From Planctomycetota bacterium (lineage in GTDB: Bacteria > Planctomycetota > Phycisphaerae > Phycisphaerales > SM1A02), in assembly GCA_014381305.1 (NCBI GenBank), contig JACNLW010000057.1, positions 3,969 to 57,076 on the forward strand: DNA of 53,108 bases. Direction: 5' to 3'. The notes beneath the pieces are model-generated. The model made no database searches and had not been told where the DNA came from. It saw only the letters and a program-made list of their open reading frames with translations. A program made the translations under genes and the position numbers. Numbering within the stretch: the stretch's first letter is position 1; every line of letters starts with the position of its first letter. This document shows positions 28,184 to 37,411 of the stretch, piece after piece.

Positions 28184-29842
28184 TTATGTGCCTTTGAATT
28201 TCCATGGCTCGCCGGGCACATAGTCTAAAGTGTCGTATAACTCTTGCCTTGTTTGCATTGTGGATTCAAACCCTTCTGCAGATCCTGTTTTATGTAACTG
28301 AGACAAGCAATTGGTTATCGCACCCATTGCGACTCGTTGCATTGTGACAGGATAAATGACGAGGTTATACCCAAGTGATTCGAATTGTTTTGCACAAAGG
28401 TGGGGTGTTTTTCCAAACTCTGTCATATTCGCTAAAAGAAGGCCTGAACATTCCTTTGCAAAAATTTTAAACTCATCTTCCGATCGAAGACCTTCTGGAA
28501 AAATCATATCTGCACCCGCCTCTCGATACGCACAACCTCGCTCGATAGCGGCTGCCAACGAGTCGGTTCCACGAGCATCGGTGCGGGCAATTAGAATGAA
28601 ATCTTTATCTCGTTTACTGTTTACTGCAAATTCAATTTTCTCAACCATCGCCCATTGAGAAACGAGTGTTTTTCCATCGAGATGTCCACACCTTTTTGGA
28701 AACTCTTGATCTTCAATATGCAAACCAGCCGCGCCATTGCTTTCATATTCCATCACCGTTCGAGAAATACTTTCTATCTCTCCATATCCCGTGTCGGCAT
28801 CTGCGATCACGGGTAACTTGCTCGCAGACACGACCTCGCGAATTGTGCGGCACATTTCGGTAAGGGATATCAAACCAATATCTGGGTAGCCAGAAGCGTT
28901 GGCCGTTGCACCACCGCTGATATAACAAGATTCAAAACCGGTTTTTGCAATCGCAGCAGCAACAAGTCCGTTCCATGCGCCGGGGCACATCACAATACCC
29001 TCGTTCATTTTTTTTCTAAGTGTTGCTCCGGGGTGTGTCATTGTGTATATTTTACGTGACTTTGTTGTTTTATGTGCAACCTGTGCATTATTTGGTACCA
29101 CGCTGATAAACATTTTGGCTGATGCAATCAGTAAAACAACACCTAGGACTGTTCGCAAACCTTGGTGACCTAGCCTGCGAGAACCAAAGGTAGCGCCTGC
29201 AAAACCGCCAACAACAACCGCTACGCCAAGTGGAGCCACAAAAATAAAATCAACTGGAAGTCCCCCTTGGTCCATGGTTATTCCGCCAAGGCTAGCAATT
29301 GAGTTTACTAAAATGAATGGTGCGCTAAGTGCTGCTGTTTGTTTTGCAGTTGCCCAGCCAAGGAGAAGAATTAATGGACTTAAGAAAATACCGCCACCAA
29401 CGCCGATGATTCCGCTTGGAAAACCAATGAGTACTCCTGCAATGATGATCAATAGGGTAGGAGATCGTTTAGACTGCTCGGTTCCTTTTATTGGAACGAA
29501 TAAACGAATTGCAGCGTAAAGCAAAATAATCCCAACAATCGGTTTGTATATAGTTGAAGGCACTTCTGTGTATCCCCCAACAAAAGCCGCTGGAATACTT
29601 GCGCAAATCAATGGAATAAAAATATCTTTTCGAAACGTTCCTGTTTTACCAAACCTCCATGTGCCAATAGAGGCTACAACTACATTTAACAAGAGGGCTG
29701 TTGGTCGCATCTCTTCTGGGGCGATGCCCGAGAGCGCTAGCACGGCTAAATACCCAGACCCCCCACCATGACCTACTGTCGAATATAAAGCCGCCATGAC
29801 AAGAACGGCGATCCCAATGATGAGCGTTTGTTCGTCAAACAC
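28184..29842 (-). CDS. Apparent fusion: TauE/SafE-type permease plus 2-methylisocitrate lyase
   Basis: 552 aa in one uninterrupted frame. Residues 1-250 form a TSUP (TauE/SafE/DUF81) permease with about eight helices and the motifs TVGHGGGSGYL and IGVGGGIFL. Residues 268-552 are a complete isocitrate lyase-family enzyme with DADTGYG (348-354), IEDQ (376-379), KRCGH (383-387) and RTDA (420-423). KRCGH is the 2-methylisocitrate lyase form. The linker is only about 18 residues. The start is GTG with no clear ribosome site. A second start at ATG 29041 could yield the lyase alone, so two separate proteins whose intervening stop has been lost remain possible. Confidence 0.8.
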   Translation of the reverse strand: MFDEQTLIIGIAVLVMAALYSTVGHGGGSGYLAVLALSGIAPEEMRPTALLLNVVVASIGTWRFGKTGTFRKDIFIPLICASIPAAFVGGYTEVPSTIYKPIVGIILLYAAIRLFVPIKGTEQSKRSPTLLIIIAGVLIGFPSGIIGVGGGIFLSPLILLLGWATAKQTAALSAPFILVNSIASLGGITMDQGGLPVDFIFVAPLGVAVVVGGFAGATFGSRRLGHQGLRTVLGVVLLIASAKMFISVVPNNAQVAHKTTKSRKIYTMTHPGATLRKKMNEGIVMCPGAWNGLVAAAIAKTGFESCYISGGATANASGYPDIGLISLTEMCRTIREVVSASKLPVIADADTGYGEIESISRTVMEYESNGAAGLHIEDQEFPKRCGHLDGKTLVSQWAMVEKIEFAVNSKRDKDFILIARTDARGTDSLAAAIERGCAYREAGADMIFPEGLRSEDEFKIFAKECSGLLLANMTEFGKTPHLCAKQFESLGYNLVIYPVTMQRVAMGAITNCLSQLHKTGSAEGFESTMQTRQELYDTLDYVPGEPWKFKGT

Positions 29843-29860: not shown

Positions 29861-31684
29861 TTAATTGTTTTGAGTGGTGAAGTCAAAAGATGTTGACTTG
29901 GTTGGTCCAACCACTGTTGCAACAAGTGTGTTGGTTGGAGATTCTGTAAAAACAAGAATTCCCGCAAGTTGTTCGTGTTCTAGTTTCGCCGCAACTTCGT
30001 GGGTACTTTGCATTCCGTCAGGGAGCCACACACGGGTGCGTGCATCAAGTTGTTGATCTGACACAATGTCCCACCCTTGCAAGATGAGTTGTTCAACAAT
30101 ACCAATGACTTGTGTTTTGCATGTTTCTGGGTCAGATGCCACTGCACAGTTTTCTAATAAAAGAACTCGTCCACTTGGTCTTTGGTGATCAAAGAGAGAG
30201 GGTGAAGAAACAGTGTTTACAGTTTGTGGGATTGTTGGTGTGTTGTCCGAAGACGTTGTCGCATACACGATCACTGCACAAATAATAAATGCTGCCAATA
30301 GGCCAAGGGGCTTTGTCTTGTTTTTTTCTTGTTTAAAAGGACCTCCGCCAGTTGATGGTGTTGTTCGTGGACGAACACTTTTTTTATACACAACTTCGGC
30401 TGGACTACTTTGATCGTCATTCATGGATGGTAAATCAGCGGGTCGAACCTTTGTAACATCTTTCGCGTGCAAAATGGTTTCTATATCTGCAAGCATTTCT
30501 TCAACCGAACAATATCGTTTGTCATAATCTGACATTGCGCGCCGAACCACCCAGCGAATAGATTCGGGGCTATTCTTGTTAAACCCGCTCAACCCGCCGT
30601 GGGGAGGAAACGTGTTTTCCAACATGAAATAAAGAACTGCACCAGCGCTGTACACGTCAAACTTTGATCCGTCTACTTGGTGCACCTTTACGCCGCGCAT
30701 TGCTTGTCGAACCAATTCTGGGTCACGAAAATATTCTGTGCCGTGGGTGGTAAGGGTCATTGCCGAGGCGAGGGGTGTAACTAAACCAAGATCAACAAGG
30801 TTCGCCCTTCCATCGTGCACGATGATATTGTCTGGTTTCACGTCTTTGTGCCACAGACCAGCCAAGTGGTATTCTCGCAATGTCTGCAAAAGGGTTTGTT
30901 GGTATAAAAGTATTGTTCGCAGATTTTTATTATTCAGATTTGCAGAGGTTCCGTGTAGCGACGATGTGACCGAGCCTAAATGATCCCCATCGTGAAACGG
31001 CATTGCGTACCAAAACCGTTTGTTATCAAGATGGTGCTCGATAATTAAACCGAGTTTTTTTGCTGCCTCCATCGATCTTGATTCTCTAACAATTTGGGGT
31101 AATGCGGAACCATCTGATATATCAAAACACTTAATGACTGCCTTTGGGGATCCGTTGTGTGGTTTGGCAATGTATATTTTTGCGCCACTCCCACCCGGTG
31201 GAAGTGTGCCAACAACGGTATATCCTATGAACTTGTTTTCTGTTTTTTTGTTTTCACCAAATACGTGTTTTAATTCTTCTATCACCCCTTCTACTTCGGA
31301 TCGGACTTGCTTGGCATAATCTGGGGTTTCTTTTTTCTTTGGAGTGCCAATTCCAATCACGCGGAGTGGGTTGTCGATAAAAATTGCAACGAGTCGATTC
31401 CATACTTCATAAAATCGTTTTTTTGCTGCGTGTATTTCTATTTTTGCAATATCCCACCGCGCGAGAACAATGCAAAGTACGGCACGCAAAAGTTTTACTA
31501 CACCGACAAACAACGCGATTGGAATCAATAATACATCTCGAAACTCCTGAAAAACAAACCGGAAAAGTCGTCCTATGAATAAAAAGACGTGGCCTATGAC
31601 TGGAATAACTACATAGATACACACAACAACTCCGCCAATCAGAATTGCTAGTGTGAGTAATAATCCAAACAAAAACGAAACCAT
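29861..31684 (-). CDS. Membrane Ser/Thr protein kinase (Hanks type)
   Basis: 607 aa. Two N-terminal hydrophobic segments (about 3-40 and 50-76) precede the kinase domain (about 154-405). This has a Gly-rich loop GTLPPGGSGAKI, Lys185 in AVIKCFD, Glu201, HKDVKPDN (279-286) and DLG (298-300) in place of DFG, which is a tolerated change. A third membrane helix (about 460-477) precedes a 130-residue C-terminal domain of unknown fold (RVLLLENCAVASDP onwards). All catalytic residues are present. It begins in a TAATG overlap with the sigma factor stop, so the two are coupled. Confidence 0.87.
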   Translation of the reverse strand: MVSFLFGLLLTLAILIGGVVVCIYVVIPVIGHVFLFIGRLFRFVFQEFRDVLLIPIALFVGVVKLLRAVLCIVLARWDIAKIEIHAAKKRFYEVWNRLVAIFIDNPLRVIGIGTPKKKETPDYAKQVRSEVEGVIEELKHVFGENKKTENKFIGYTVVGTLPPGGSGAKIYIAKPHNGSPKAVIKCFDISDGSALPQIVRESRSMEAAKKLGLIIEHHLDNKRFWYAMPFHDGDHLGSVTSSLHGTSANLNNKNLRTILLYQQTLLQTLREYHLAGLWHKDVKPDNIIVHDGRANLVDLGLVTPLASAMTLTTHGTEYFRDPELVRQAMRGVKVHQVDGSKFDVYSAGAVLYFMLENTFPPHGGLSGFNKNSPESIRWVVRRAMSDYDKRYCSVEEMLADIETILHAKDVTKVRPADLPSMNDDQSSPAEVVYKKSVRPRTTPSTGGGPFKQEKNKTKPLGLLAAFIICAVIVYATTSSDNTPTIPQTVNTVSSPSLFDHQRPSGRVLLLENCAVASDPETCKTQVIGIVEQLILQGWDIVSDQQLDARTRVWLPDGMQSTHEVAAKLEHEQLAGILVFTESPTNTLVATVVGPTKSTSFDFTTQNN

Positions 31685-32415
31685 TATGTTCGCCCTTCTG
31701 CTTCTTCACCCAAGAAAATTTGGTGGGTGTGATACAAATTGCTTACAGCGTCATCAAACATGGATTCGCTTCCGGACAAACCGGCTTTTTGCGCTTCCGA
31801 TTCCTCTTCTGGCGTAAAACTATATTGCATAACTACCTCTGCAATTCGTTGTTTGAGTTGATCACGTACTTTTACCATGTGTCTACTTACTGTTGGTTCG
31901 CTTATTCCTAATGCTTCAGAAACTTCCTTACCTGTCTGAGTATCAAGTGCTCGCATTCTCCATACTTGAAATTGGACAAAATCCACTTCTGATTCTGTTC
32001 TTCGGATTGCAGCGCAGATTTTTGCAGCAAACATTCTTTGTTCAAAAACTTCATCCACCTCAAGAGCCGCTTGGCTCGAATCAATTCGCTCATCAAGCGA
32101 GAGTGGTTTCACACCACTGTTCCTTTTTTGCGCATTGCGGCGATCAAACTCGTCTCCAAGCGTGTGCTTTGCAATCGATAGAAGCCACGTGCTAAATCTC
32201 GCCCCCCTGTCTGGGTCGTACCTCTCTATACACCGAGAAAGTGCAGCCAATGTATCTTGGGTGAGGTCTTGTACTGTTTCAAAACCAATGCGACCACCGC
32301 CCCATTTTGACAATTGAAACCGTATGGCTGGACCAAAGTCCTGCCACAATTCAAACCACGCCGCCTCGTCACGGTCGCGGAGCCTGCGCACAAAAGTGGT
32401 TGTCAGGGCATTCAT
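31684..32415 (-). CDS. ECF-type RNA polymerase sigma factor
   Basis: 243 aa. The sigma region 2 core is FETVQDLTQDTLAALSRC with YDPDRGARFSTWLLSIAKHTLGDEFDRR. Region 4 with its helix-turn-helix is EVSEALGISEPTVSRHMVKV. A C-terminal tail of about 45 residues after region 4 is unusual. I chose ATG 32415 because AGGAAG lies about 9 nt upstream; a GTG at 32421 is a longer alternative. The downstream kinase gene overlaps by 1 nt, and planctomycete ECF factors paired with Ser/Thr kinases are known. No anti-sigma factor is encoded nearby. Confidence 0.87.
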   Translation of the reverse strand: MNALTTTFVRRLRDRDEAAWFELWQDFGPAIRFQLSKWGGGRIGFETVQDLTQDTLAALSRCIERYDPDRGARFSTWLLSIAKHTLGDEFDRRNAQKRNSGVKPLSLDERIDSSQAALEVDEVFEQRMFAAKICAAIRRTESEVDFVQFQVWRMRALDTQTGKEVSEALGISEPTVSRHMVKVRDQLKQRIAEVVMQYSFTPEEESEAQKAGLSGSESMFDDAVSNLYHTHQIFLGEEAEGRT

Positions 32416-32545
32416 TGGCACTCTTCCTTATTGGGACAATTCATTATGGGATTTTAGGGTCAGAATGAAATAGTTCACGATATTTCCCCAAATACTTGGT
32501 ACGCACGGGCTGTTCTGTGCAAAACAGTAACAAAAGGAGGTTGCC

Positions 32546-33460
32546 ATGGGCGCCACAACACGATTTATTGTTCGATGGGGATTAATTGGAGGTCTTGCTT
32601 TGGGTGGTGTCACCTTATTGGTTGGGCCAAAACGGGTCGTTGCTTGCTTCGATCAACTACGAGAAGAGGCTTCGTCAATCGTTGATGAAATGGTTGATGA
32701 CCCAATTGCACTCCGCCGTCAACTTGATGAACTTGCGCAGGAATATCCAGTAAGAATCGCAGAGATTACCGGCGAGGTTTCCAAAATTGATCACCAGCTT
32801 GGCCAATTTGAGCGGGATGAATCAATTGCATTAAATGTTGTAAAACTAACAACAGTCGATCTTGATGCACTAAAAGAACTTGTTGCCATTGCTGAAAATG
32901 AAGAGAGTGTCGGTGGAAAGCCCGTTTCTTTTTGGTTTGAAGGCGTGCGATACGACCTTGAAAGTGCGTACACAAAAGCAAGGAGAATACGAACCGTAAG
33001 AGCGAATTACGAAGATCGTCTTGCGGCAGACCGTAGACAAATGGAATTGATGTCTGAACAACGTACTCGGCTCGCATCAATTTTAGAAAAAATACAACAT
33101 GAACACGAACAATACCGTTCCCAACTTTGGCAACTTGATCGAGAAATTGATGCAATCGAACGAAACGATCACATTATTGCGATGGTAGAACGGCAACAAC
33201 AAACACTGTCATCATTTGATCAGTTTGGTTCAGGAAACAATTTGGATCAGGTGCGGTCGAGGCTCGCAGAAATTCGCACTGTTCAAGAAAGTACTATCCT
33301 TGCACTCACTGAAACTGGTGGTGGATCTGATTATGAAACACGGGCGAGGTTCGCAATGAGTGAGGGTGCAAACGAAAACCCGTTTGTTGAAACAAAACCT
33401 GTTCATGTAAGAGAAGACGCAGGACCATACGCTTTGCTTGGTGGTAAAGATACGCACTAA
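32546..33460 (+). CDS. Membrane-anchored coiled-coil protein, function unknown
   Basis: 304 aa with a strong AAAGGAGG ribosome site 6 nt upstream of ATG. An N-terminal hydrophobic segment (about 12-28, WGLIGGLALGGVTLLVG) is followed by about 200 residues of heptad-rich helices (roughly 35-95 and 140-225), then a disordered acidic tail. This resembles PspA-like or chromosome/envelope spacer proteins in layout only; no sequence identity is visible. It is divergent from the sigma factor-kinase pair (130-nt gap) and is followed by the tandem repeat motif and terminator. Confidence 0.72.
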   Translation: MGATTRFIVRWGLIGGLALGGVTLLVGPKRVVACFDQLREEASSIVDEMVDDPIALRRQLDELAQEYPVRIAEITGEVSKIDHQLGQFERDESIALNVVKLTTVDLDALKELVAIAENEESVGGKPVSFWFEGVRYDLESAYTKARRIRTVRANYEDRLAADRRQMELMSEQRTRLASILEKIQHEHEQYRSQLWQLDREIDAIERNDHIIAMVERQQQTLSSFDQFGSGNNLDQVRSRLAEIRTVQESTILALTETGGGSDYETRARFAMSEGANENPFVETKPVHVREDAGPYALLGGKDTH

Positions 33461-33565
33461 ACCCTAGTTGTTACTTAGCGCATTTTTCTGGGTAGGCACA
33501 GATTACCGGGCGGTATACCAAGAAGAACCCTAGTTGTTACTTGAAACATTTCGGGGTAGGCACAG
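33460..33565 (+). ncRNA. Tandem two-block repeat, candidate structured RNA element
   Basis: Two copies lie 66 nt apart, at 33460-33501 (42 nt) and 33526-33565 (40 nt). Each has a 17-nt block AACCCTAGTTGTTACTT and a 12-nt block GGGTAGGCACAG, both identical between copies. The middle part differs in sequence and length (13 vs 11 nt). The blocks are mutually complementary (ACCC with GGGT, or CCTA with TAGG). Copy 1 is followed by TACCGGGCGGTA and copy 2 by the terminator hairpin. The first copy begins inside the TAA stop codon of the coiled-coil gene. It matches no riboswitch class I recognise. Confidence 0.5.
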
Positions 33566-33597
33566 GCGGCGATCGATTGTTTCGATCGCCGCTTTTT
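33566..33597 (+). terminator. Strong intrinsic terminator
   Basis: GCGGCGATCGA (33566-33576) pairs perfectly with TCGATCGCCGC (33582-33592) around the loop TTGTT, and TTTTT follows at 33593-33597. The T run is on the plus side only, so it ends transcripts of the coiled-coil gene and the tandem motif. It does not serve the convergent SpoIID-like gene. Confidence 0.93.
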
Positions 33598-33635
33598 CGT
33601 TGCCCTTGAAGTAATAGTGATATTGTTTGGGTTCG

Positions 33636-35578: not shown

Positions 35579-37411
35579 ATGAATTTTTACGAACACCAAG
35601 ATCGGGCGCGAAAGCGAACGAAAATCATAGTGTTTTTGTTTATTGTTGCTGTTTTTATGATCATGGCAATGGTTGTTGTACCCGTTGGAGTGGTCTCTGA
35701 GTGGAACAGTGGCGCCATCGTTGTCTCGGCTGTGTTTTGTTTGCTTATTGTTGGAATTTCTGCTCTTGTAAAACTCGGACAACTCAACGATGGTGGGCAT
35801 GTTGTAGCGGAAATGCTCGGTGGTACCGAACTGCAAAGAACAAGTAGCAATTCCTCAGAAAGAAAAGTAAACAATATTGTTGAAGAAATGGCGATTGCGA
35901 GTGGTATGCCCGTGCCGCCGGTTTATATTATTGAAGACGATTCTATCAACGCGTTTGCTGCTGGCTGGACTCCAAGTGATGCTGTTATTGGCGTAACACG
36001 TGGGTGTATAGAACAATTAAACAGAGACGAGTTACAAGGCGTCATCGCCCATGAATTTAGTCATATCTCACATGGAGATATGCGAATTAACATTCGACTT
36101 ATTGGAATAATTTTCGGGATTATGGCACTTGGTATTACTGGTTGGATTTTTGTGAGACACATTGGTCCAATGATTTTATATTCTTCTTCGAGATCTCGAT
36201 CAAAAGAGGGTGCTGGTGGAGCAGGTATTGGATTAGCAATCATTGTGCTTGGTTTGTTTCTTGTTATTTGTGGTGCAATTGGAACTTTTTTTGGAAGATT
36301 AATCCAAGCGGCTGTTTCAAGGCAACGAGAGTTTCTCGCTGACGCCTCAGCGGTGCAGTACACACGAAACCCAAGTGGGATTGGAGGTGCACTCAGACAA
36401 ATTGGTGGTATACCTGATCAATCCACGCTCGCAAAAGACGCGGGCCAATGTAACCACATGTTTTTTTCACAAGCCGTAAGTTCGATTTTCGCTAGCCACC
36501 CGCCAATTACTGAGCGAGTTGCGCGTATTGAGGGAATTGATATGTCCTCTCTCCAAACTCCTGCGCATGAACAGGTGGTGGTTGGCGATGCAAGGATTTC
36601 TGGTTTTTCTTCAACTAGTGTAAAAACTTCGGTCCAAGAAGCTTCGGCAATTGAAGATAAATATATTGATCGTGCTCGGCAAGCTATTCATAACATTTCA
36701 AATCCCATCAGAAGTGCTTTGGGCAACAGTTGGTCTGCAAGGCTGGTGATGTTTTCACTCCTCATAGATACGCAAGATGTACAACAGAAAAATTTGCTCA
36801 ACGATCTTCTTTCTAATCAAGAGAGAACTGAGTTGCGAAAAATTTTGCTTCTTATTGATAAAGAAAAGCGGTCTTCTAGAATCCCTATGATCGACCTTGC
36901 CGCGCCGGCGCTAAAACAACTAAGCAGTGAACAACAGGTCGTGTTTGTAAAAACGCTCACGGATATCGCTCAGTGTGACAATGTTGTGAGCAGATTTGAG
37001 TGGGTTCTTATTTCTGTTATCAAAAAACACCTCGGGAACAACTCTTTCCAAAAATTATCTCAGGGTGCGAACAAAAAACTTGGTCCTCTTTCCAAGGATG
37101 TTGTTGTTGTTCTTTCTACGCTTGCATACAGTGGGGCAGAAAATCAGGCGCAGGCAGAGCGTGCTTTTAATCATGCTATTCACGAAATTGGGTTGAAAAA
37201 AGAGCGGATTCGTGAAGTAAAAGATTGCACAATGGAGTCTATCCACCACGCTCTCAACAAATTACAACGCTTGCGATTTGTGGAAAAAGAAAAACTTCTG
37301 TTTGCTTGTGAATCTTGTGTTGTACACGATGATCACATCACTGTTGCCGAAGCAGAAACAATCAGGGCAATTGGGGACGTGCTTGATTGCCCAATCCCCA
37401 TGTTTGGATAA
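35579..37411 (+). CDS. M48 (HtpX/Ste24-like) membrane metalloprotease with helical C-terminal extension
   Basis: 610 aa. Membrane helices lie at about 15-38 and 45-63, and the zinc-binding HEFSH is at 158-162. Two more helices (about 170-190 and 205-235) are followed by the third ligand Glu in SRQREFLADASAVQY. Residues about 340-610 form a helical extension with TerB-like flavour (for example DNVVSRFEWVLISVIKKHL); that likeness is tentative. Zinc ligands are all present. The pairing with lemA is common in bacteria and points to membrane protein quality control. Confidence 0.9.
   Translation: MNFYEHQDRARKRTKIIVFLFIVAVFMIMAMVVVPVGVVSEWNSGAIVVSAVFCLLIVGISALVKLGQLNDGGHVVAEMLGGTELQRTSSNSSERKVNNIVEEMAIASGMPVPPVYIIEDDSINAFAAGWTPSDAVIGVTRGCIEQLNRDELQGVIAHEFSHISHGDMRINIRLIGIIFGIMALGITGWIFVRHIGPMILYSSSRSRSKEGAGGAGIGLAIIVLGLFLVICGAIGTFFGRLIQAAVSRQREFLADASAVQYTRNPSGIGGALRQIGGIPDQSTLAKDAGQCNHMFFSQAVSSIFASHPPITERVARIEGIDMSSLQTPAHEQVVVGDARISGFSSTSVKTSVQEASAIEDKYIDRARQAIHNISNPIRSALGNSWSARLVMFSLLIDTQDVQQKNLLNDLLSNQERTELRKILLLIDKEKRSSRIPMIDLAAPALKQLSSEQQVVFVKTLTDIAQCDNVVSRFEWVLISVIKKHLGNNSFQKLSQGANKKLGPLSKDVVVVLSTLAYSGAENQAQAERAFNHAIHEIGLKKERIREVKDCTMESIHHALNKLQRLRFVEKEKLLFACESCVVHDDHITVAEAETIRAIGDVLDCPIPMFG

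Follow-up and report, generated by a model that had tools for sequence, protein, structure and literature searches.

A covarying RNA element at the 3′ end of a planctomycete coiled-coil gene, doubled in one species, with a possible feedback on the divergent ECF sigma factor

The stretch of DNA analysed here (the window, 53,108 nucleotides of a Planctomycetota contig) holds a tandem repeat of two short blocks that an initial annotation had put forward as a new structured RNA. This repeat is the recently doubled form of a small folded RNA present in a group of marine planctomycetes. Positions 33526-33597 are the 3′-terminal RNA element of a coiled-coil gene, in which a stem-loop is followed by a mostly unpaired conserved linker and a terminator. 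In addition, the predicted pairing of the linker with the start of the divergent sigma factor mRNA suggests a feedback switch. It is quite possible, if somewhat short of probable, that this 3′-terminal element, with its upstream half doubled here, acts through its linker as a negative feedback on the ECF sigma factor. To our knowledge, small-RNA control has hardly been described in planctomycetes. If true, a 3′-UTR RNA loop onto an ECF sigma factor would bring such circuits to an unexplored phylum, and a simple reporter could test it; even without the pairing, this is a clearly selected, covarying 3′-UTR RNA that is found in no library.

The tandem repeat and its single-copy relatives

The two blocks recur letter for letter at the positions first annotated (Table 1), separated by 13 nt in copy 1 and by 11 nt in copy 2. 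The last base of the TAA stop codon (33458-33460) is the first base of block 1, so that the element does begin inside the stop codon of the membrane coiled-coil gene, and the block pair is unique to this locus in the whole 1.88-Mb genome. An exact 17-mer repeat inside 70 bp is not a product of chance. The blocks had also been described as able to pair through ACCC and GGGT; this pairing is possible, and it is used in the fold of copy 2.

Other parts of the initial description need revision. The middles of the two copies do differ in length, but they are not wholly unrelated, as CATTT occurs in each, and over their first 26 nt the copies are 85% identical when placed in register. The pattern was said not to be what a recent duplication leaves behind, whereas the data fit a duplication of ~46 nt, after which changes gathered mainly in the loop. 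Of the hairpins proposed to follow each copy, the second is a strong terminator, but a meaningful hairpin after copy 1 is not borne out, and copy 1 folded alone gives a z-score of +1.14, its fold being equalled or bettered by 185 of 200 shuffles.

Table 1. Features of the locus (positions in the window)
Feature	Position	Strand	Description
Ser/Thr protein kinase gene	29861..31684	-	overlaps the end of the sigma gene; Pkinase E 5e-17
ECF sigma factor gene	31684..32421	-	Sigma70_r2 E 5e-12, sigma70-ECF E 1.8e-18; probable ATG start at 32415
Predicted pairing site across the sigma start codon	32403..32421	-	GUGCC-[AAUGAA]-UGCCCUGA; best duplex among 206 gene starts for the copy 2 linker
Promoter-like site of the sigma gene	32431..32456	-	TAAAAT-N15-CCCAA; in 8/9 genus members, two of these with CCTAA
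Promoter-like site of the host gene	32466..32491	+	TGAAAT-N15-CCCAA; sequence motif
Host gene	32546..33460	+	304-aa protein, N-terminal membrane segment and coiled coil; matches no Pfam or NCBIfam family
Block 1	33460-33476 and 33526-33542		AACCCTAGTTGTTACTT (17 nt); letter-identical in both copies
Block 2	33490-33501 and 33554-33565		GGGTAGGCACAG (12 nt); letter-identical in both copies
Copy 1	33460..33501	+	tandem duplicate of the upstream half; no terminator, no stable fold alone; absent in 8/8 sister species
Copy 2 hairpin 1	33526..33557	+	ACCCU:GGGGU pairs, variable loop (fold of 33525-33600); orthologous hairpin covaries in sister species
Linker stretch	33551..33563	+	UCGGGGUAGGCAC; 3′ part is the conserved unpaired linker; whole stretch able to pair with the sigma start (duplex prediction)
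Intrinsic terminator	33564..33597	+	13-bp stem, then TTTTT; stem covaries in sister species

All eight sister species with an orthologue of the host gene carry one element directly 3′ of the stop codon, consisting of a hairpin, a linker of ~10 nt and a strong terminator, and the tandem copy is therefore, among the genomes compared, an innovation of the window species. The upstream half of the element was tandemly duplicated in this species, giving rise to the two-block pattern. In six of the eight sister species the element reads like CCCTGTTTACTACAGGG-CGTTTAGCAC-terminator. In the closest relatives of the window species (G005 and G002) the linker reads GGGGAAGGCAC or GGGATGGCAC, and the upstream hairpin of G005 is a different one. 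The tandem arrangement itself was considered as a conserved RNA unit and discarded, since it is seen in the window species only and copy 1 lacks a stable fold. In G009, direct and inverted copies of CTCTGAGACTTTTTTTAGCCCAAAAATCG lie after the terminator (L006, around 2005-2107).

Covariation, conservation and spread of the element

In an alignment of six sister species, four of the six pairs of hairpin 1 have changed on both sides and still pair, and the same is observed for five of the ten pairs of the terminator stem. For the whole structure, this amounts to two-sided changes in 9 of 16 pairs, with a covariation score that was reached in none of 500 shuffles and lies far above those of all slid structures; the test is based on the six sister sequences, the window's copies not being among them. 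The compensatory changes that characterize structured RNA elements, and whose lack had been named beforehand as an argument against this one, are thus present. Linker identity in the six sister species is 97%, against 47% at four-fold sites of the host gene, and in the window's clade it is 87%, against about 50% at neutral sites. Because the hairpin pairs covary and the linker far outconserves four-fold sites, a selected 3′-UTR RNA element exists. The G+C-rich stem followed by a T-tract 3′ of the gene, as in intrinsic (Rho-independent) terminators, is kept in all eight sister species. Of the earlier proposal of a structured RNA acting in a 3′ UTR or as a small RNA, the structured 3′-end RNA is thereby borne out by covariation and linker conservation, while its role in the 3′ UTR or as a small RNA is plausible.

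A covariance model matches copy 2 of the window at 30.7 bits, and it also detects the orthologous element in seven sister species. Outside the genus, a search of 151 family genomes with this model gave no convincing homologue with hairpin, linker and terminator; the matches obtained there were mostly to the terminator alone or lacked parts of the element, and were rejected. The element is confined to one locus in one genus, without the recurrence beside different genes or in other genera that is typical of a widespread riboswitch-like class, and the expectation that it would recur elsewhere is not borne out. The idea of a broad new RNA class loses ground in the same way, as the lack of homologues outside close relatives, which had been named as an argument against it, is largely what was found, and a ligand pocket is not supported. 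The proposed comparison with Rfam returned two tRNAs only in the window and no match at the element there or at its counterparts in the orthologous loci, so that a known RNA family or riboswitch was dismissed. CcsR1 was likewise dismissed as its identity, being a weak Rfam match in L006 that lies far under threshold. Two extra matches to GGCGTTYAGCAC, in G003 and G009, lie away from the locus, the one in G003 within a coding frame, and look like chance.

The gene cassette and its promoter-like sites

The host gene stands, as initially described, divergent from a sigma factor and a kinase gene, now matched to an ECF sigma factor and a Ser/Thr protein kinase, and its orthologues are found in 34 of 61 relatives. 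The sister genomes G008 and G011 possess SpoIID and lack the sigma and coiled-coil orthologues, together with the element. In both of them SpoIID abuts the TauE gene, which indicates that the kinase, the sigma factor, the coiled-coil gene and the element (29861-33597) are missing as one block. As the element is absent where SpoIID remains without the cassette, it travels with the coiled-coil gene rather than with SpoIID, the convergent gene. In other genera with the same gene and sigma factor, an ordinary terminator without the linker is present. Beyond the kinase gene, a single 552-aa frame of the window (28184-29842) joins a TauE-like membrane domain to a methylisocitrate lyase (PrpB-like) domain; G008 and G011 have two separate frames instead.

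A TGAAA-N15-CCCAA motif (spacer about 15) lies upstream of the coiled-coil gene at 25 of 30 homologous loci across the order, against an average of 0.01 in shuffles. It is common for an ECF sigma factor to drive transcription of its own gene and of one next to it. Given this habit and the similar motifs upstream of both genes, the neighbouring sigma factor probably drives the two of them, and the coiled-coil gene is, judging from these motifs, probably transcribed by the divergent ECF sigma factor. In the window, the host-gene (+) and sigma-gene (-) sites stand back to back (32431-32491). The 5′ UTR of the host gene also holds, upstream of its ribosome-binding site, a hairpin, GCACGGGCTGTTCTGTGC (32503..32520, + strand). 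Across the genus its 3′ arm, UCUGUGC, is almost invariant and its 5′ arm varies with pairing kept, as read by eye.

Predicted pairing with the sigma start, competing readings and known circuits

The element would most likely make and protect the 3′ end of the mRNA. Its 3′ end of roughly 70 nt may be released as a 3′-UTR-derived small RNA or may act within the mRNA, and the linker may pair with the mRNA of the divergent ECF sigma factor on both sides of its start codon, a pairing that would lower sigma translation. Since the host gene appears to be transcribed by the very sigma factor that the linker would repress, this would constitute a negative feedback. The pairing would need to be Hfq-independent, because Hfq (PF17209) was found in none of 13 genus genomes, in which controls were detected.

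In six sister species the linker, GGCGUUYAGCAC, is predicted to pair with GUGC-[CAA or UAA]-UGAACGCC in the sigma mRNA, spanning the start codon, while the window linker UCGGGGUAGGCAC, unlike that of the sisters, is predicted to pair with GUGCC-[AAUGAA]-UGCCCUGA. Duplex energies range from -16.6 to -22.7 kcal/mol in the window and the six sister genomes, and in each of seven of the nine genomes at most 14 of 1000 shuffled linkers were as good. The sigma start ranks 1 of 206 gene starts in the window genome, 1 of 150 in G001, where it is better than all 149 sampled starts, and 2 of 1004 in G004, the latter ranking being drawn from 1.31 Mb. When 578 pooled starts serve as the null, the seven genomes have 0 to 20 that are as good. 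With the GCAC part held fixed, p was 0.001-0.03 in the six sister species and 0.045 in the window, whose linker is predicted to pair better with its own sigma start than with any of the other eight. In G005 and G002, the closest relatives of the window, the pairing is not significant (135 and 62 of 578 pooled starts as good), and neither is that of copy 1 with the sigma start. If the sigma promoter is as proposed, the sigma leader would be only about 8-15 nt long, which counts against the pairing, as do the failure to detect Hfq in 13 genomes and the linker-free terminators of other genera. The seven significant genomes were tested one by one, the six sisters share ancestry, which makes their tests non-independent, and the sigma start was picked as target post hoc; for these reasons, the pairing of linker and sigma mRNA is presented as a good hypothesis rather than a finding. 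The full account, in which the ECF sigma factor is curbed by an Hfq-independent 3′-UTR RNA of its own target gene that pairs across its start codon, with a seed reshaped in the clade of the window and an element doubled in this species, is offered tentatively and leans towards the doubtful.

Several other pairings were examined. In other genera, eight of nine cases give no signal at the sigma start. A match in L015 was discounted, as part of it falls upstream of where the transcript presumably starts, and in G015 11 of 12 pairs form at the same position (p 0.05), although its nearest relatives lack the linker and the match may be chance. Pairing of the linker with the 5′ UTR of its own host gene (GCACAG with CTGTGC) was seen with p 0.03-0.7 and rejected. 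Among the 1004 starts of G004, the best predicted duplex of the G001 linker is with the start region of the nearby M48 peptidase gene (L123; gene start at 35579 in the window), possibly by chance.

A plain 3′ end may well account for the element, though this too we would not call probable. The terminator would end the mRNA, and the stem-loop and linker would only stabilise its 3′ end or tune termination or nuclease access, perhaps via a linker-binding protein, the complementarity to the sigma mRNA being accidental. The strength of the terminator, with its 13-bp stem, and the covariation of the hairpin agree with such a role, as do the failure of the pairing in two of nine genomes and the fact that a terminator alone suffices in other genera. 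However, a near-invariant unpaired sequence of 10 nt is not explained by that alone, and the high rank of the sigma start is left without explanation.

The convergence of the coiled-coil gene with SpoIID raises the further, unlikely, reading of two back-to-back terminators, hairpin 1 acting for the minus-strand SpoIID gene and hairpin 2 for the coiled-coil gene. A minus-strand U-rich stretch can be seen by eye after hairpin 1 in about four of nine genomes (e.g., G004 and G002), and, where the cassette is missing, SpoIID and TauE apparently form an operon. Nevertheless, about half of the species have a poor tail, a terminator scan detects none on the minus strand at this place in the window, and the conservation of the linker is not accounted for. 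It is very improbable that the linker is what remains of a copied sigma 5′ end, an origin that would explain the direct-repeat resemblance in G001 between GGGCGTT---TAGCAC (+ strand) and GGGCGTTCATTAGCAC at the sigma start: such a relic should decay, yet linker identity is 97% against 47% at neutral sites.

The proposed feedback on the sigma factor resembles that of OppZ and CarZ of Vibrio cholerae, autoregulatory 3′-UTR-derived sRNAs that feed back on their own circuits (PMC9438474). As in those cases, a short, terminator-ended RNA at an mRNA 3′ end is proposed to repress genes of its own circuit. However, OppZ needs Hfq and RNase E and targets the mRNA of its own operon, whereas here no Hfq gene was found and the putative target is the divergent sigma gene. 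Small RNAs are also described as giving sigma factors a repressive arm (PMC9438474, PMC8103513). The sigma-E-dependent RNAs MicL, MicA and RybB resemble the element as RNAs under an ECF-type sigma factor, and MicL also derives from a 3′ gene region, but they repress mRNAs of envelope proteins, while the target proposed here is the start codon of the sigma factor itself (PMC9438474, PMC8103513). The element shares no Rfam sequence family with any of the three. The likeness to the kinase-linked groups ECF43 and ECF59 is one of gene adjacency, an ECF sigma gene lying beside a Ser/Thr kinase gene, and a 3′-UTR RNA arm is not mentioned for them in the portion of PMC8103513 considered. Finally, the element shares with ordinary intrinsic terminators the G+C-rich stem and T-tract after a gene, to which, unlike them, it adds a covarying stem-loop and a near-invariant linker upstream.
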